DNA of 51,755 nt, taken from a virus. Position 1 is the first letter of the stretch, and every line of letters starts with the position of its first letter. Where the stretch lies: IMG/VR virus record IMGVR_UViG_3300034137_000018, positions 1-51,755 of that record. One strand, written 5' to 3'. Position numbers and translations under genes: made by a program. A model generated the notes under the pieces. It made no database searches and was not told where the DNA came from. It worked only from the letters and a program-made list of their open reading frames with translations. Below are positions 2,707-32,516 of the stretch, piece by piece.

Positions 2707-2936
2707 TCTGCGCCCTTCAGTCGTAGTCCAGTATCGGTCAGTGGCCCCCAGCGCCGGGTCAGTTCGTCCCACCCCACGTAGGTCTTGTAGCCGTTCTTGT
2801 AGCCCTTCCAGTGCCCGTCCGTTGTGCGCCCCCAGCGGGGACTGGCTGGGTCGCACGGGTCCCAATCTGGTGTGCTGTAGTCAGTGACGCAGACCACCTC
2901 GGGTGGCGGCTCGGGGGCGCCTTGGTCCCAGGTCAC
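2703..2936 (-). CDS. Hypothetical protein between the methyltransferases
   Basis: 77 residues, translationally coupled on both sides by ATGA overlaps. Rich in Trp, Gly, Asp and Tyr (for example GRTTDGHWKGYKNGYKTY), with no recognised domain. Its sandwiched position suggests it travels with the methyltransferase pair. Confidence 0.7.
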   Translation of the reverse strand: MTWDQGAPEPPPEVVCVTDYSTPDWDPCDPASPRWGRTTDGHWKGYKNGYKTYVGWDELTRRWGPLTDTGLRLKGAE

Positions 2937-4009
2937 ACCGTCCCCATCTCGTCTGTGGCGACCTTCGGGTCGCCCTTCACGAACACCAGCGCATGCTGGT
3001 GCATACGGATGACCTTGCGGGCGCTGGAGAAGTGACGGCCGGCGCGCACAGCACCAGACCCCACCGGGTCCAGAATCACCAGGTCGTTGTACAACTCGAG
3101 CCCGCAGTCCTGCGCGGCATGGATGGTGTCAGCCACCAGCGCCCGGTACGGACTGCCCACCTTTGCCTTGTCCCGCACATCGCTGGTCACCCACACCACG
3201 AACCGGTTTGGTCGCAGGTGCTCAACGGCCTCCGCCAGGATGGCCTGCTGCACCACGAGGAACATGTCGTAGTCCATGGTGGACAGGTCCCGCGGGTCGT
3301 CCGAGTACACCTCCAGGTCGGCGTACGGGGGGCAGGTCAGGATCAGGTCGGCAGCAAAGTGGGTCAGCGCTGGCAGCACGTGCAGGCTGTCACCAGCCAG
3401 CCACCGCGGCTTGGGTAGCCCGTCCGGCACCAGACCGATCTGCTGCCAGTTGGCGTTCACCTGATCGGCGCGCAGGTCCACACCCAGGTAGTCCCGGCCC
3501 AGCACCCCGGACACAATGCCACGGACACTGCCGCCGGCGAACGGGTCCAGCACCTGCCAGCCCACCTTGCTGAACCAGCGGACCGCCAACTCGGCCAGCA
3601 CCGGGTCAAAGATGGACGTGCCTACCGTCTCCACATCCCCGGCCTCGCCGTCCCCGCCGCCCCACTTCGGGTCATAGGAGGCGGTGCCGCCGCCGGCCTT
3701 CTGACCCAGCCACGCACCGCCACCGCCGCCGCCCGGGTGCGGGCCACTGCCACGCTTGTGCTTGAACTGGCCGGCGCCGTTGAAGTAGTCATCGGTGAAG
3801 CCGGACCTCTTCAGCAGGTTCGTGTCCCGCCCCAACTCGGACTTGATGCCCAGGGACAGCCACGCCCGCTTCCGCTCCTGCCACAGCCCAGCCCGCCGGT
3901 CCAACACGCTGAACGGCGGCACCCCGAACCGGTCGGCCAGGGTGACCGCCGGCGCCGCCTCCGACTCGAACAGCGCCTCGGGGGCCAGCGGGTCCACGAA
4001 GCCGCTCAC
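2933..4009 (-). CDS. DNA methyltransferase (N4-cytosine/N6-adenine type), copy 2
   Basis: 358 residues from a GTG at 4009 that overlaps the upstream stop (GTGA). It carries the same N-terminal FGVPPFSVLDRR segment, DPFAGG and TCPPY motifs, and the downstream YSDDPRDLSTMD stretch shared with copy 1. It differs mainly by a Gly-rich insertion of about 40 residues around 105-145 (HPGGGGGGAW...KWGGGDG), between the N-terminal segment and the SAM motif. That insertion lies where a target-recognition loop could sit, so the two copies may methylate different sites. This is inference from divergence only. Confidence 0.88.
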   Translation of the reverse strand: MSGFVDPLAPEALFESEAAPAVTLADRFGVPPFSVLDRRAGLWQERKRAWLSLGIKSELGRDTNLLKRSGFTDDYFNGAGQFKHKRGSGPHPGGGGGGAWLGQKAGGGTASYDPKWGGGDGEAGDVETVGTSIFDPVLAELAVRWFSKVGWQVLDPFAGGSVRGIVSGVLGRDYLGVDLRADQVNANWQQIGLVPDGLPKPRWLAGDSLHVLPALTHFAADLILTCPPYADLEVYSDDPRDLSTMDYDMFLVVQQAILAEAVEHLRPNRFVVWVTSDVRDKAKVGSPYRALVADTIHAAQDCGLELYNDLVILDPVGSGAVRAGRHFSSARKVIRMHQHALVFVKGDPKVATDEMGTV

Positions 4010-4626: not shown

Positions 4627-4998
4627 TCAGCGGCGGGGGGGTAGTGCGGTGTAGACAGTTTTCGGGGCCACGTAGTCCGGGTGGCGGGGGTCAGTGACGG
4701 GCCACGGCAGCGGGGTCATGCCCACCACGGACGCCAGCGGGACCGTTGCCCAGCGGTTGTCCTCGCCGTACATGCGGCAGGTCAGGTCCACAGCCTTGTC
4801 GGTGTCACCCAGCAGGGACACACCCACCCCGATTACCTCCACGTCGAACGCCACCGTCAGCGGTGTTGGCTTGGCCACCTTCACGTAGACCAGGGACCGG
4901 CGCCCCATCAGGGACTGCACAGTCATCCGCTTCTGGCTGGGCGTCATGCGCGCCATCTCCATCCGGCGCGGCTCTTGACTCGGGGCTGCGGTGTTCAT
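4627..4998 (-). CDS. Hypothetical protein, leaderless start
   Basis: 123 residues. The ATG at 4998 is chosen over upstream in-frame codons because it lies exactly 6 bases after the -10 box of a conserved promoter, and no Shine-Dalgarno is present. Basic N-terminal 35 residues (KRMTVQSLMGRRSLVYVKVAK), then a beta-rich body. Function unknown. The shared promoter type places it in the same regulon as the genes starting at 6416, 7470, 14679, 15358, 42346, 47480 and 49739. Confidence 0.75.
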   Translation of the reverse strand: MNTAAPSQEPRRMEMARMTPSQKRMTVQSLMGRRSLVYVKVAKPTPLTVAFDVEVIGVGVSLLGDTDKAVDLTCRMYGEDNRWATVPLASVVGMTPLPWPVTDPRHPDYVAPKTVYTALPPRR

Positions 4999-5604: not shown

Positions 5605-6416
5605 AGCAGCGCCCCCGCCACAATGTTGGCCGCGGTCGGCCGGCGGAAGAAGCCGAACGCCTCGTCGTCACGGCTGGCCTCGAGGGTGGCCACGAAGGTG
5701 ACATGATCGCCCTTCTGGACGTTGCCCACCAGTTCGCCGTCCACCCAGTCCCCCAGCAGAGACTTGGGGCAGGTGCCGTACACCTTGAAGCCGCGGTCGT
5801 CGCGCACCAGCAGTTTCACCTCGAGGCTGCCGTATGCGTAGCCGTCCACCGTCTTGCGGGCCAGCACTTCGCCGGTCACGGTCTGCCGGCCGGTCACCAC
5901 CGGGGACTGCGCGGCCAGTTCGGCAGCCTTCGCAGCCTCCCGTGCGTCGTGGTCAGCCACAGTCTGCAGCATCGCCTCGCCCTGCTTGTCGGTCAGCCCA
6001 CCGTGCTTGCCGACGTGGTGGTACAGCGACCAGTAGAAGCCGCTGCTGTCCTCGATGACCTTCAGCCGGTCCAGCGCAGCCGCCAGATCGGGGCTGCTGT
6101 GCCGCCACGCGCCGCGGCTGATGTCGGCCAGCACTTCTGCCTCCCGGGCTGCCACAGCCTGCTTGACGTGCCGGTGTGCGGTGGCCCGCAGGCTGGACAC
6201 CTTGACGGTGTTCTTGCCGCTGCCGTCGCAGTCGAAGCAGACGCGTCCTTGGGTGCGCTCTCCGTGCACGTAGCCGTCGAGGACGACGCGGCCGAAGTGC
6301 ACGACGCCGTCACCGCCGCAGTTGCCGCAGGTGCGGACGATGGTGTCGGTGCCCTTCATGCCAGGGCACGGGTCCACGTAGACGGTGGGGTCGGTTTGGG
6401 TGTCTGCGGTGGTCAT
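5601..6416 (-). CDS. DnaJ-type zinc-finger protein with C-terminal beta domain
   Basis: 271 residues. Two CxxCxGxG-type knuckles (CGNCGGDG near residue 30 and CFDCDGSG near residue 60) are the hallmark of the DnaJ cysteine-rich zinc domain. Without a J-domain, it is probably a zinc-binding RNA/DNA or protein scaffold. A helical middle is followed by a beta-rich C-terminus (about 165-260: GEVLARKTVDGYAYGSLEVK, VTFVATLEASRDDEAFGFF) resembling an OB-like fold. The start is leaderless, 6 bases after a -10 box. The gene at 14897-15358 has a related knuckle module and the same promoter type. Confidence 0.72.
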   Translation of the reverse strand: MTTADTQTDPTVYVDPCPGMKGTDTIVRTCGNCGGDGVVHFGRVVLDGYVHGERTQGRVCFDCDGSGKNTVKVSSLRATAHRHVKQAVAAREAEVLADISRGAWRHSSPDLAAALDRLKVIEDSSGFYWSLYHHVGKHGGLTDKQGEAMLQTVADHDAREAAKAAELAAQSPVVTGRQTVTGEVLARKTVDGYAYGSLEVKLLVRDDRGFKVYGTCPKSLLGDWVDGELVGNVQKGDHVTFVATLEASRDDEAFGFFRRPTAANIVAGALL

Positions 6417-26164: not shown

Positions 26165-29100
26165 TCACCGCTGCGCATACACGCCCCCTCTGGTGGTGCT
26201 GCGGACCCGGAACATGACCTCATCCAGGTCCCTGTGCAAGTTACCGGATGACTGCAGCGTCAGGCTGCCGATGTACGGCCGGCTGTCAGTGCCGCCCGCA
26301 CCGCCCTGCCCGGTCATGGCCCGCCGCGTCTGGCTGCCTGTCAGCACCCGCTCGCCGCCGCTGTACCTGCGCAACTGCGGGTTCAGCACCAACTCAGCAC
26401 CCTTCTCGCCGGTCCAGGCAAACCCGGGCGCGGCGGACTGTGTGCCGGCTGCGTAGCCGCGTTGGCGGACCGCGCCGCCCCTCTTGTAGAAGTCGACGTG
26501 CACGTGGTCATAGTGCGGGTTGACCCCGCGGTAACTGCCCCAGCCGCCACGGCCGGCGTTGTGGATGCGGCGCCGCCAAATCACGTTGTCCACACCGAAC
26601 TTCCCGCGGCCGGACCCTGCAAAGTAGCCGGCGATTTCGTTTCCCAACGCCACATTGCTGGTCATGATGTCAATGGCCTTGCCGATGGCGTGCTTGGAGA
26701 GGGTGCGGGTGCCGGCGATGTTGCGGTACGAGAAGCCGCCGATGTTGGTGATGCCCCAACGGTCTGTGGTGTACGCCCGCGCCGCCCTTGCGCGCGGCCC
26801 CAGCCCTCGGGTGGAGCCAGCCGACGACTTCGACACCACAGACCTGATGTCGGTCCACAGGTTTTCTGCGAACCCCTTAGCCTTGTCCACCGCCTTATCC
26901 AGCAGCAGCCCCGGCACGCGCCGCACCACACCACCCCAGCCGCTGGCGCCCAGCCCACCCAGCCCGGCCTGCGCCATAGCCTTCGATGCACGGTCCCGCA
27001 GCAGGTCCGCAGGGTTAGCGAACTTACCCAGCCATGACGCCTTCACCCGCTCAGTCAGGGCGCCCACCGCACCCTTTATGGCGTCACCCACCGCAGACAG
27101 TGGCCCGCTGCCGCCCCGCAGTTCGAAGTGCAGGTGGGGCCCGGTGCTGTTGCCGGTGGACCCCACCCTGCCCACGTTGTCGCCGCCGCGCACCCGGTCC
27201 CTGGCCTTCACCAGGAACGACGACAGGTGCGCGTACAGGGACCTCTCCCTGCCGTGGTTGATCCACACGTGCTTGCCGTACGAGCCGGTCAGGGTGCGGA
27301 CGCTGGCCACCACCCCATCCTTGTACGCCTTCACCAGCGCCCCGAAGTCGCCGGGCTTGTTGCCGTCACCAGCCCACCGCGCGAAGCCATACCCGGATTT
27401 GTGCTGCGACCACGACGCACCGGGCAGCGGGTTGACGCCGCCGCCCAGGAAGTAGCCGGGCAGCCGCAGCCCTGCACGGACAGCCCGCCGCAGCGCCTCA
27501 ATGGGCCGGTGCCCGCCAGCCTTCCGCACCTCGTCCGCAGTCCACACATGCTCGTGTGCGTGGGTGACCCCCGCCACCTCATCATCGGACATGCCACTGC
27601 CGGTGGGCCCACCGCCCTTGAAGCCTTTGATGGAGATGGGTGACAGCCGCCCACCGATTTTCAGTTTGTCGATCACCCAGTTGTAGGCACCGATGAGGCC
27701 GCTGTTGACGATGCCGATGACGGCTGTGATGGGCGCCTTCATTTTGGCGCGCAGCCCGTCCCAGATGCGGCCGGCGGCGGAAATGAAGCCGGACAGCCGG
27801 CCCCGCAGCCCCGTCTTGTCGTTGGTGCCCAAAATGTTGGTCACCGCGTCACGGGCGCTGCCCACCGGGTCCGACATCCATCTGCGGATAGCGGACCAGC
27901 CGCGCCGCCACGTCCCACCAGCCCACGCGCGCAGCGCCCCCAGGTCAGACTGTGCGTTGTCCAGGCTGCGGTTCGCTGCGTCCCTGCCGGCCCTAACCGA
28001 ACTCGACATCCAGCCGGAGATCGCTGACCAGCCGCGCCGCCACGTGCTGCCCGCCCACTTACGCAGCGCGCCCAGGTCCGCCTGCACAGCGTCCATGGCA
28101 CGCCCCGACGCCCGCTGCCCGGACGTGACCGCAGACGACATCCAGCCGGACACAGCAGACCAGCCCTTACGCCACGTGCTGCCCGTCCAGTTCTTCGCGG
28201 ACGTGAACTTGCGGGTGATGTCGTTCCAGTCAGACACCACCGCGTCCTTGCCGCGCCCCACCGCCCCACCAATGGCGGGCCCCACACCAGCCCAGTCCTT
28301 GCGCCAGGCACCCACCACCCAGTCCTTGGACCGCGAGAATTGGCCGGTGATCTTGTCCCAGTTGCGGGACACCGCCAGCACGCCCAACCCAATGGGGCCC
28401 AGCAGGACAGCCAGCACCACATCCCAGTGCTTCTTCCAGGTGCCCACCACCCAGTCCTTGGCGTCCCGGAATTTGCCGGTGATCTTGTTCCAGTCACCCA
28501 CTATGGCGTCACGGACCCGGCCGAATGCTGCCGGCACCTCCCGGCCCAGCCAGCCGAACACTGCGTTGACGATCTCGCGGAAGCGCTCGCTGTGCTTGTA
28601 GGCGTAGATGAGGCCGCCCACCAGTGCGGCTATGGCGATGACCACCAGCCCGATGGGGTTCGCGGTCATGGCCACGTTCAGCGCCCACTGCGCAGCCGCG
28701 CCTATGCGAGTGGTGGCGGCCAGGGTCCCCAGCCACTTCAGGAAGCCGCCGGCCGCCATGATTTGCATCTGGATGGCGGTGGCGCCCAGCCCCACCCCGA
28801 AGATGCCCAGCGCCACACCCACAGGAGTCAGCACGCCACGCCAGCGGGCCATCCACTCGACCACCGCAGCCACCGCAGGCACCCCGGTGTCCTTCAACCA
28901 CAGCAGGAACGGCAGCACATCATCGCGCAGCACCCGCCCAATGCCGCCACCGGCCTCCTTGATGGCCGCCCACGTCTCAGACCGCCCGAAGCGGTCCAGG
29001 GCATCCTGGCCCTGCCGCAGCAGCCCAGGCACCGCAGCGGCGCCGTCACGGACCGCCCCGAACACACCGACCGCTACGGACTTGATGGTCCCCCACGCAT

Positions 29101-30112
29101 CGGACCGCCCGAACGCCATAGCGCCGTCCGTGATGCCGGTCAGAATGCCGGGCAGTTTCTCCAACTGCCTGCCCAGGAACGCTGACGCACCCCCCAGCCC
29201 GTCTTTCAGCATGGGAATGAGGGGGGCGATGGCGGTGGCCAGCCCCTGCCCCAGCGTGTCCTTGACGGTGGACCACATACCAGCCAGTGACGCTGACTGC
29301 TTCGCCATCAGCCCGTCGAAGCGCTCCAACCCAGCCTGCGCGGCCGGCCCCGCCAACGCCTGCATCATGGCGTCCAACTCAGTCTTGCCTAGTTTGCCTG
29401 CCTGTGCCAGCGCCGCGATTTCCTTCTTGGACTTGCCGGTGGCCTTCGCCAGCAGGTCATACACCGGGATGCCGGCGTCCCTCAACTGGTTCAGGTCCTC
29501 GCCTGTGATCTTGCCGGCGGCGTTCATCTGCTGCAGCGCCACGGTGGCGCGCTTCACACCCTCGGCCCCAGTGCCCATGCCGCTGGTCACATTGCCCAGG
29601 TTGGTCATGATGGGAATGACCTTGTCGGCCTCAATGCCGGCTGAGATGAGGCTGCTGGCCGCGGTCTGCAACTCAGGGAACTCAAAGGGGGTAGTGGCCG
29701 CAAAGTCCTTCAGCCGGGTCAGAAACGCCTCAGCCTTCTCTCCGGACCCCAGCATGGTGGTAAACGCAATCTGGGCGGTCTCGTTGCCGGCCGCCACCTG
29801 CACACCCATGCCCAGTCCGGCCGCGCCCACAGCGCCCAGCGCAGCCACACCAGCCCCGCCAAAACGGCCGATGGTGCCCAGTGCCCCACCCAGCATGCCG
29901 CTGATGCCGGACGCCGCCCGACCCACATGGGTGCGGGCTGCGCTGCTGAACTGCGTTCCTAGCGCAGCACCGGCTGCGGTGCCTGACCTGCCGGCCTCTG
30001 TGGTGACCTGACGCCCGAATAGACCGAAGCGGCGGTGCGCACGTGACAGCCCAGCAGGCATGCCGCTGTCGTCCACCACCACCCGGGCAGACAACTCACC
30101 TAAGTCGAGCAC
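26165..30112 (-). CDS. Tape measure protein with two peptidoglycan-hydrolase domains
   Basis: 1315 residues, which sets tail length. A GTG start at 30112 follows GGGAGG by 4 bases; an upstream frame extension is rejected because it overlaps the HNH promoter. The N-terminus is Ala/Gly-rich and helical. Hydrophobic segments at about 440-530 probably cross the host membrane, and Trp-rich repeats follow at about 545-770. The C-terminus carries an M23-type zinc peptidase (about 895-1000, motif GPHLHFEL near 993) and then a second domain with SKHAIGKAIDIM and HYDHVHVDF (about 1115-1205), matching the M15/VanY-type H-x6-D...HxH arrangement. Both domains would open the cell wall during DNA entry. Confidence 0.9.
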   Translation of the reverse strand: MLDLGELSARVVVDDSGMPAGLSRAHRRFGLFGRQVTTEAGRSGTAAGAALGTQFSSAARTHVGRAASGISGMLGGALGTIGRFGGAGVAALGAVGAAGLGMGVQVAAGNETAQIAFTTMLGSGEKAEAFLTRLKDFAATTPFEFPELQTAASSLISAGIEADKVIPIMTNLGNVTSGMGTGAEGVKRATVALQQMNAAGKITGEDLNQLRDAGIPVYDLLAKATGKSKKEIAALAQAGKLGKTELDAMMQALAGPAAQAGLERFDGLMAKQSASLAGMWSTVKDTLGQGLATAIAPLIPMLKDGLGGASAFLGRQLEKLPGILTGITDGAMAFGRSDAWGTIKSVAVGVFGAVRDGAAAVPGLLRQGQDALDRFGRSETWAAIKEAGGGIGRVLRDDVLPFLLWLKDTGVPAVAAVVEWMARWRGVLTPVGVALGIFGVGLGATAIQMQIMAAGGFLKWLGTLAATTRIGAAAQWALNVAMTANPIGLVVIAIAALVGGLIYAYKHSERFREIVNAVFGWLGREVPAAFGRVRDAIVGDWNKITGKFRDAKDWVVGTWKKHWDVVLAVLLGPIGLGVLAVSRNWDKITGQFSRSKDWVVGAWRKDWAGVGPAIGGAVGRGKDAVVSDWNDITRKFTSAKNWTGSTWRKGWSAVSGWMSSAVTSGQRASGRAMDAVQADLGALRKWAGSTWRRGWSAISGWMSSSVRAGRDAANRSLDNAQSDLGALRAWAGGTWRRGWSAIRRWMSDPVGSARDAVTNILGTNDKTGLRGRLSGFISAAGRIWDGLRAKMKAPITAVIGIVNSGLIGAYNWVIDKLKIGGRLSPISIKGFKGGGPTGSGMSDDEVAGVTHAHEHVWTADEVRKAGGHRPIEALRRAVRAGLRLPGYFLGGGVNPLPGASWSQHKSGYGFARWAGDGNKPGDFGALVKAYKDGVVASVRTLTGSYGKHVWINHGRERSLYAHLSSFLVKARDRVRGGDNVGRVGSTGNSTGPHLHFELRGGSGPLSAVGDAIKGAVGALTERVKASWLGKFANPADLLRDRASKAMAQAGLGGLGASGWGGVVRRVPGLLLDKAVDKAKGFAENLWTDIRSVVSKSSAGSTRGLGPRARAARAYTTDRWGITNIGGFSYRNIAGTRTLSKHAIGKAIDIMTSNVALGNEIAGYFAGSGRGKFGVDNVIWRRRIHNAGRGGWGSYRGVNPHYDHVHVDFYKRGGAVRQRGYAAGTQSAAPGFAWTGEKGAELVLNPQLRRYSGGERVLTGSQTRRAMTGQGGAGGTDSRPYIGSLTLQSSGNLHRDLDEVMFRVRSTTRGGVYAQR
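27850..28260 (-). repeat. Trp-rich tandem repeats in the tape measure
   Basis: At least three protein repeats of the form WxGSTWRxGWSAxSGWMSS spaced about 48-50 residues apart, with weaker copies upstream (DWVVGTWKK and DWVVGAWRK). They probably stack as helices along the tail lumen. Copy number here would change predicted tail length. Confidence 0.7.
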
Positions 30113-30140: not shown

Positions 30141-30698
30141 ATGCGGAGTCCATGCAAGGTGCCTGACTGTCAGAAGCCCAGCGGCGGCGGGCAGGGCATG
30201 TGCGGCATGCATTACCTCCGCTGGAAGAAGCACGGTGACACAGCGCACACCGGCGCCACGGGCGGGACAGTCGAGGAGCGATATCGCGCCCACATACACA
30301 TTGACCCTGACACTGGCTGCTGGCTGTGGACAGGCTCGGACGTGAGCAACAAGGGCTATGCGCGCTTCCATGTGGACGGGAAGCGCACCCAGGTGCACCG
30401 CTGGTCATACGAGCACCATGTACGTCCACTATTGCCGGGCGAGGTAGTTGACCACTATGAGTGCGACACCCCCCTGTGCAGCAACCCTGACCACCTGCGC
30501 GGGTCCAGCCAGCGCAGCAACGTCCTGCGTTCATCGAGCGGACCTTCAGCAGTGAATGCGCGTAGAACGCACTGCAAGTACGGGCACCCGTTTGATGCAG
30601 CCAACACCGTGGTGAGGGTCCACCCAAACGGGTCGACGTCCCGGGCATGCCGGGCATGCAGTAACGCACGATGCCGCAAGTCGCGTCAGCGCAAGTGA
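30141..30698 (+). CDS. Free-standing HNH endonuclease between tail genes
   Basis: 185 residues on the opposite strand, inserted between the tail chaperone and tape measure genes, which are normally adjacent. The N-terminal zinc module CKVPDCQKP...MCGMHYLRWKKHGD is followed by the HNH core (VDHYECDTPLCSNPDHLRG, near residues 97-115) and a C-terminal module CKYGHPFDAAN...CRACSNARC. All zinc and catalytic residues appear intact. No ribosome site; a -10-like TAAAGT lies 6 bases before the ATG. Such free-standing HNH genes behave as homing endonucleases that spread to phages lacking them. Confidence 0.88.
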   Translation: MRSPCKVPDCQKPSGGGQGMCGMHYLRWKKHGDTAHTGATGGTVEERYRAHIHIDPDTGCWLWTGSDVSNKGYARFHVDGKRTQVHRWSYEHHVRPLLPGEVVDHYECDTPLCSNPDHLRGSSQRSNVLRSSSGPSAVNARRTHCKYGHPFDAANTVVRVHPNGSTSRACRACSNARCRKSRQRK

Positions 30699-30728: not shown

Positions 30729-31618
30729 TCAGGTGCGGGGCTGGCCTCCGCGCGGGTTGAAATCAGGCGGGTCCAAGTACAGTCCCAGCCGGGTCTGTTG
30801 TACCCACACCGCGTCCCCGTCCGGCGTCCACGTCAGCACCGGCGGAATGGACAGCAACCCCTCGATGCGGCACCGCAGCCAGCGGTAGGTGCGCCGGCGC
30901 AGCATGGCCCGGTCCTCCATGTCTACGCCATGGTCGGCCAGGTCCGCCTCCACTAGTCGCCAGCATCGGAGGATGTCCCCCCACTGGTAGTGGTCCCCTG
31001 ACGCCTCTTGCGGCTCGTCGTACCAGCGGTGGAGCCCGGACGGCCCGACTTCCCCGAACCCTTGGCCTTGCGGTCCTGCGGTTGCCTTGGTGGCGTCGGT
31101 GCTTCCGAGGCTTTTGGGCGGGCACCTGACTTCCAGAACGCCTGCGCTGCAGCCTTACCCACACCCGTCCAAATCATGGCGGTGGCGCCCACGAATTGGA
31201 TGCGCTGCCAGTCCAGCCCGTCATCGTGCATCTGCTGCCACACGTCACGGTCCGGGCTGTAGTCGGGTGCGTCTGGGGTATGGCCCAGCAGCCGCATGTA
31301 CAGGTCCGTCTCCTCGGCGTCGTCCAGCACCGCCTTGGTGCTGGCGTCGATGCGCTGACCGTTCGCTGCCTGGTCGCCGGCCAGAATGAGGCGGCTGCAC
31401 AGCAGCCCCAGCATGGGGTCCGCTGGCGGGATGCGGTACACCTTGCCGCGGATGGGCAGGGCCAGGCTGTCATCGAAGAACGAATCGAGGTCCTCGAAGC
31501 CGTCCACCTCGAGGGGTGCGGTCTGCACCTGCCCCTCGACTGCGGGCTGCTCGGGGACCATCTTGAGGCTGCGGATTTGCGCCAGTACCTCGTCGGCTGC
31601 GGGTGTGTCGTCGGTCAT
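30729..31618 (-). CDS. Tail assembly chaperone, -1 frameshift product (gpGT type)
   Basis: Formed by reading 31618-31112 and then, after a -1 slip at CCCAAAA, 31112-30729: about 296 residues. The -1 frame is open throughout the join and encodes the T-type domain, with HYQWGDILRCWRLVEADLAD, GVDMED and WLRCRIEGLLSI. The product binds the tape measure and recruits tail tube subunits, as lambda gpGT does. A separately initiated T frame (from 30953) is unlikely, since it lacks a ribosome site and the conserved DHYQWGDI part lies upstream. Confidence 0.82.
30953..31618 (-). CDS. Tail assembly chaperone (gpG type)
   Basis: 221 residues, GGGAG 7 bases before the ATG at 31618. The acidic N-terminal half carries a DDSLALPIRGKVYRIPPAD motif typical of actinophage chaperones. 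The C-terminal 60 residues are a Ser/Gly/Lys-rich tail that is out of frame with the conserved T domain. This short form is the more abundant product in related systems. Confidence 0.85.
   Translation of the reverse strand: MTDDTPAADEVLAQIRSLKMVPEQPAVEGQVQTAPLEVDGFEDLDSFFDDSLALPIRGKVYRIPPADPMLGLLCSRLILAGDQAANGQRIDASTKAVLDDAEETDLYMRLLGHTPDAPDYSPDRDVWQQMHDDGLDWQRIQFVGATAMIWTGVGKAAAQAFWKSGARPKASEAPTPPRQPQDRKAKGSGKSGRPGSTAGTTSRKRRQGTTTSGGTSSDAGD
31112..31118 (-). promoter_or_regulatory. -1 programmed frameshift slippery site CCCAAAA
   Basis: On the minus strand C-CCA-AAA is in the exact X-XXY-YYZ phase relative to the ATG at 31618: the codon CCA begins at 31117. After the slip, the -1 frame stays open to 30729. 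Confidence 0.82.
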
Positions 31619-31742: not shown

Positions 31743-32516
31743 CTACGCGTACGTCAACTTGGACGCGGCGCTGGCCGCCGACGCACCGCCGGGGCCGGTC
31801 ACGACGACGTCGTACTGCCCGGCCGTCCTCGCCACCGCCTTCAGTGCCAGGTTGGTGTCGTTGACCGGCTCCCAGTCCGCTGCCGCCACGGCGGTGCCGC
31901 CGATGGTCACAGCGGTGGCGGTGGAGAAGTTCACCCCCGTCACCAGAATGAGGCCGCCGCCGGCCACACCCGTGGTGGTGGGCAGCACCCCGGACACCAC
32001 CGGCGCACCCAGCGGGGTGTCGTTGGGGTGCGTGATGGGCAGCAGCACACCCTGCCCGGTCAGCGTCAGCCCGGCCGTGGAGAGCGCGTCCGGGCCGCCA
32101 CCGTTGTTGGTGTACTGCACCGCCGCATAGCCCTCGTACGCCTCAGCCTTGGGCCCGGTGGCCCCGTTGAGTTCGTAGTAGCGGACGTGCGCCGTGTTGG
32201 ACGGGCCCATGTTCCGGGACCGGTTGCGCAGGTACTCCTGGCCCACGTCATACGAGGACGGAAGGGCGGCGATGACACCGCGGCGCATGGTGGCCGTGAT
32301 GGACCACTCCTGCGTGGTGACGGTGCTGGACGTGTACCCGGCGCTGTCGTAGTCAGAGTCCGCTTGCAGCCCGGGCGTGCCGGCCGGGGTGAACTCAGTC
32401 AGCCCGAACAGTCACGTCCAGATGGGGGCGCCGAGGCCGTAGTTGATGTCGACGTCCAGTGCCCACTTGCGGGCCAGTGTGGTGGCGCCAAGCGCGACGC
32501 GGGTGGGGATGGCCAT
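31743..32516 (-). CDS. Major tail protein, interrupted by an in-frame TGA at codon 35
   Basis: From the ATG at 32516 the frame reads MAIPTRVALGATTLARKWAL, DVDINYGLGAPIWT, then TGA (32414-32412), then LFGLTEFTPAGTPGLQADSD and on without a stop to 31743, 257 codons counting the TGA. The parts on both sides fit one tail tube protein: the WxxxxGLTEF strand after the stop is the conserved continuation of what precedes it. The C-terminal 80 residues form an IPT/TIG-type Ig-like domain (VVSGVLPTTTGVAGGGLILV). Without the upstream part, translation could only start at the ATG at 32288. A sequencing or assembly error, a real nonsense mutation (CGA or TGG to TGA) and stop readthrough are the options. 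TGA is a normal stop in all other genes here. Confidence 0.8.

Follow-up and report, generated by a model that had tools for sequence, protein, structure and literature searches.

Organization of the tail module

The DNA analyzed here (the window) is the full length of an IMG/VR-type virus record and comprises 51,755 bases with a GC content of 68%. On its minus strand, an ATG at 32516 opens a frame that meets TGA at 32414–32412 (codon 35), continues for 222 sense codons, and is closed by TAG at 31745–31743. Re-reading the sequence confirmed these coordinates and counts, which had been given in a first-pass annotation. The 34 codons preceding the TGA translate to MAIPTRVALGATTLARKWALDVDINYGLGAPIWT, and the codons that directly follow it (CTG TTC GGG CTG ACT GAG TTC) translate to LFGLTEF. 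The features of the locus are as follows.

31743–32516, minus strand: major tail (tube) protein gene, 257 codons followed by TAG, broken at codon 35 (PHROG 3884, 7.6e-33 when read through; translation; lambda gpV fold match)
32412–32414, minus strand: in-frame TGA at codon 35 (read from the sequence; all 80 homologues have a sense codon here, 34 of them for Gly)
32415–32516, minus strand: first 34 codons, first tube strand (residues 18–23) and start of the strand at residues 33–36 (AlphaFold2 model; conserved with L002 and L003)
31746–32411, minus strand: 222 codons 3′ of the stop, remaining tube domain (PHROG 3884, 1.6e-25)
31746–32003, minus strand: C-terminal IPT/TIG (Ig-like) domain (Pfam PF01833, 9.2e-11, residues 137–221 of the downstream part)
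30953–31618: DUF7426 tail assembly chaperone
26165–30112: tape measure

The siphophage module around the gene is normal, with terminase, portal, S78 protease, capsid, connector, DUF7426 chaperone, tape measure, and minor tail proteins. The tail gene immediately precedes those for the tail assembly chaperone and the tape measure, the position that PHROG 3884 genes of actinobacteriophages also occupy, and its nearest named relatives are found in phages of Microbacterium, Curtobacterium, Streptomyces, and Gordonia (Actinobacteria hosts).

Several further features were observed in this region. A second frame (30763–31199, minus strand) overlaps the tail chaperone gene, aligns to open reading frames in L002 and L003, the two closest relatives of the window at the tail gene, and is probably the expected frameshifted gpGT-type extension. 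A probable HNH homing endonuclease gene (30141–30698, plus strand) lies on the opposite strand between the chaperone and the tape measure, where the gap measures roughly 650 bases in the window versus ∼46 in the relative L012. Its match to HNH_3 (E 0.00038) falls under the curated cut-off, and tblastn aligned it to annotated phage HNH endonucleases with a best E of 1e-13. The tape measure gene contains repeats of 132 bases (44 codons) at 27855–28494.

Outside the tail module, a 26-base element recurs at positions 4990, 6408, 7462, 14391, 14671, 15350, 42338, 47501, and 49731 (minus-strand consensus TGCCANAATAGACACATG), with seven matches at no more than three mismatches compared with 0.01 expected. 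At no fewer than five predicted genes (starts at 6416, 7470, 14679, 42346, and 49739), the element coincides in position with the start codon, and it resembles a promoter for leaderless transcription or an operator for a repressor. Two related ParB-like/DNA methyltransferase genes (PHROG 12517 and 498) stand in tandem on the minus strand at 1666–2706 and 2933–4009; they share DNA blocks of 72–76% identity and, judged by their sequences, are a tandem duplication.

Both sides of the TGA encode one tail tube protein

The open frame that characterizes PHROG 3884 tail proteins is interrupted in the window by the TGA at codon 35, and the family assignment made here applies to the read-through sequence rather than to an expressed product. 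With the stop read through, the score against the PHROG 3884 profile (major tail protein) is 114.6 bits, compared with 90.9 bits when the downstream part is scored by itself, indicating that both sides of the TGA belong to one gene. The match spans residues 10–167 of the read-through protein.

We built an AlphaFold2 model with the TGA read as Gly. The model (mean pLDDT 82.6) places strands at residues 18–23, 33–36, and 39–52, so that codon 35 falls within a strand near the beginning of the tube domain. The top Foldseek match in the PDB is lambda gpV (PDB code 7t4f; E 3.9e-07, global TM 0.43), followed by further matches to the tail tubes of monocin and Sf11. Together, the two halves are one major tail protein with a lambda gpV-like fold and a C-terminal TIG domain. 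The first-pass annotation was correct in calling a major tail protein and in its view that neither half makes sense alone.

We scanned the whole window on both strands for coding potential and found three stops with same-frame coding on either side. Two of these simply separate neighboring genes, a start codon following directly on the stop. Behind the TGA at 32414, the next ATG or GTG follows only after 41 codons, which leaves this TGA as the sole in-frame stop in the window that interrupts a gene.

The stop is private to the window

A wider search of IMG/VR returned 80 homologous loci, some of them near-duplicate contigs, so that they do not represent 80 independent observations. All 80 have a sense codon at position 35 (Gly in 34, Pro in 22, Thr in 7, Ala in 5, others in fewer), and none carries a stop inside the gene; the single stop returned by the comparison, in L052, is the natural end of that frame. 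The four annotated phage homologues that we aligned likewise have a sense codon at the site. The comparison with close homologues that had been proposed earlier gives glycine in the two closest relatives (GGG in L002 and GGC in L003), both of which read ...IWTG(L/V)FG(L/M)TEF... across this position. The glycine codon GGA, which is one base away from TGA, occupies the site in L037–L039, L056, and L059.

The homologues that reach the N terminus start at the same methionine as the interrupted frame, upstream of the stop. Homologues beginning after the stop, which the earlier reading had named as evidence that would refute it, are thus not what the comparison shows. The shared start also bears on the possibility that the true gene starts downstream and that the stop is part of a short, independent open reading frame. 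A 181-codon open reading frame from the ATG at 32288 could accommodate such a late start, but the nearest ATG or GTG lies 41 codons past the stop, and codons 1–34, which encode the first tube strand, are conserved. With the homologues that extend to the N terminus beginning upstream, we give a late start hardly any credence.

The window was compared with L002 for synonymous and nonsynonymous divergence. The first 34 codons show a dN of 0.06 and a dS of 0.75, and codons 36–170 a dN of 0.13 and a dS of 0.54. In a three-way comparison, the window carries 14 private amino acid changes, L002 22, and L003 30. By these measures, both halves look constrained, and the window lineage has no excess of amino acid changes, so that relaxed selection is not indicated. 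That the window has the fewest private changes argues that the tail gene is not decaying and that the stop, if real, is very recent. The portal, protease, capsid, chaperone, tape measure, and minor tail genes align to their relatives without an in-frame break; one stop in the second frame that overlaps the chaperone gene lies where the alignment ends and was interpreted as the natural end of that frame. The stop at codon 35 is therefore private to this contig, frame-preserving, and isolated, and it lies in a constrained gene.

A 30-base pattern search found no near-identical record, and the closest record in a peptide-pattern search shares 77% identity across the downstream half. Neither search thus supplied another copy of this strain by which the base could be decided. 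Searching genome contigs with the single protein returned no relative, and megablast of 20 kb against phages gave no match.

Readthrough and reassignment of the UGA

We considered functional readthrough of the UGA, through a near-cognate tRNA for Trp or a suppressor of the host, as a source of full-length tube protein. In its favor, the frame continues past the stop and looks constrained both before and after it. UGA followed by C, as found here, is regarded as a weak terminator in Escherichia coli. This context is nevertheless no reason to expect the high output needed for a tube protein, and ordinary readthrough yields too little product for a major virion protein. The stop is conserved in none of the 80 homologues, and the closest relatives carry Gly at the site rather than Trp, Cys, or Sec. 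Shuffled sequences fold at least as well as the RNA 3′ of the UGA (z of about +0.7 to +1.0), and thus no stimulatory structure beyond that of the shuffles was found downstream. ARAGORN detected no tRNA in the record, suppressor tRNAs included, an Rfam search found no Rfam element, and a literature search retrieved no case of stop codon readthrough in a phage major tail gene.

Functional readthrough, one of the options raised in the first-pass annotation, is therefore very unlikely given the 80 IMG/VR and 4 phage homologues without the stop, the unremarkable RNA fold, and the lack of a tRNA. Slightly less probable still is the stricter version, in which the tube protein would be made only via efficient readthrough of the UGA at codon 35, perhaps with the aid of a UGA-decoding tRNA from the host. 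If true, it would be a new way of dosing a major virion protein, remarkable for a protein required in many copies.

Reassignment of TGA in the phage, or selenocysteine at codon 35, is the least probable of all the readings that we weighed. The frame does stay open past the TGA, which is the one observation in its favor. However, TGA is the commonest stop in the window, terminating 62 of the 88 predicted genes, and only a single TGA lies within a gene; a code change is excluded on these grounds, as had been concluded before. For selenocysteine, the relatives have Gly instead of Cys, and there is no special RNA stem. Both a new code and selenocysteine were accordingly rejected.

Origin of the in-frame TGA

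Most likely, the TGA is a private single-base nonsense change, either a base error in the consensus, which we favor, or a genuine loss-of-function allele. These two readings correspond to the sequence error and the defective phage or prophage proposed at the outset, and the private, isolated nature of the stop supports this pair, whereas readthrough, the third proposal, finds no such support in the relatives, the RNA fold, or the tRNA search.

We infer that one base of the virus consensus is probably wrong. An error is favored because the stop is private, preserves the frame, is the sole break, and replaces the Gly of near relatives. The constraint on the gene, the lack of a second tail tube gene that could stand in for it, and the IMG/VR-type origin of the record count in the same direction. 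It may have arisen by sequencing, low coverage, or assembly of a strain mixture, and would affect one position of a normal, functional tube gene. The living phage would then translate the gene without interruption into an ordinary tube protein of 257 residues, with a sense codon, probably for Gly, at position 35. An indel error was rejected because the frame is identical on both sides of the stop. Two points count against a consensus error: substitution errors are rare in well-covered short-read assemblies, and GGA is rare among the Gly codons here (19 of 598), so that the one-step route to TGA would start from an uncommon codon.

The main rival, which we hold to be less likely than an error, is that the nonsense mutation is real and recent. 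The virus copy or prophage would then be defective in its tail tube, or the stop would be a minority allele complemented by intact relatives in the same cell. A single frame-preserving stop that is private to the contig, in a constrained gene and with no other broken gene seen, fits such an allele, and a very recent loss would leave no further trace. On the other hand, the tube protein is essential in a siphophage, and the allele should therefore be purged from free phage; no second tail tube gene that might replace it was found in the record, and no further decay was seen.

The locus serves mainly as a caution. A lone in-frame stop that is private to a single virus record and lies in a constrained gene is what base errors and private mutations are expected to produce, and such stops should be compared with relatives before recoding is proposed.

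Comparison with known tail proteins

The PHROG 3884 tail proteins of actinobacteriophages (for example, Microbacterium phages Warren and Rasovi, Streptomyces phage Piccadilly) belong to the same family as the window protein, share its tube domain, and are encoded at the same place before the chaperone and the tape measure. In contrast to these phage homologues, the window gene alone has TGA at codon 35, and its product possesses a C-terminal TIG domain that the short phage homologues (165–172 amino acids) lack. The IMG/VR contigs L002 (3300004213_000126) and L003 (3300025875_000093) are 80 and 77% identical, respectively, over the whole protein, including the TIG domain, and share the neighboring genes; they differ from the window in their intact frame with Gly at codon 35.

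Lambda gpV (PDB code 7t4f) combines a tube domain with an Ig-like C-terminal domain, similar to the window protein, from which it differs in sequence (17% identity). The modest TM of 0.43 between the two probably results from a different placement of the two domains.

Recoding is known from genes of the tail module, as in the gpG–gpGT frameshift of lambda and in Listeria phages, in which the major tail protein itself is frameshifted (PMC5009743). However, those frameshifts add a C-terminal extension, whereas the window exhibits an unconserved in-frame stop near the N terminus.
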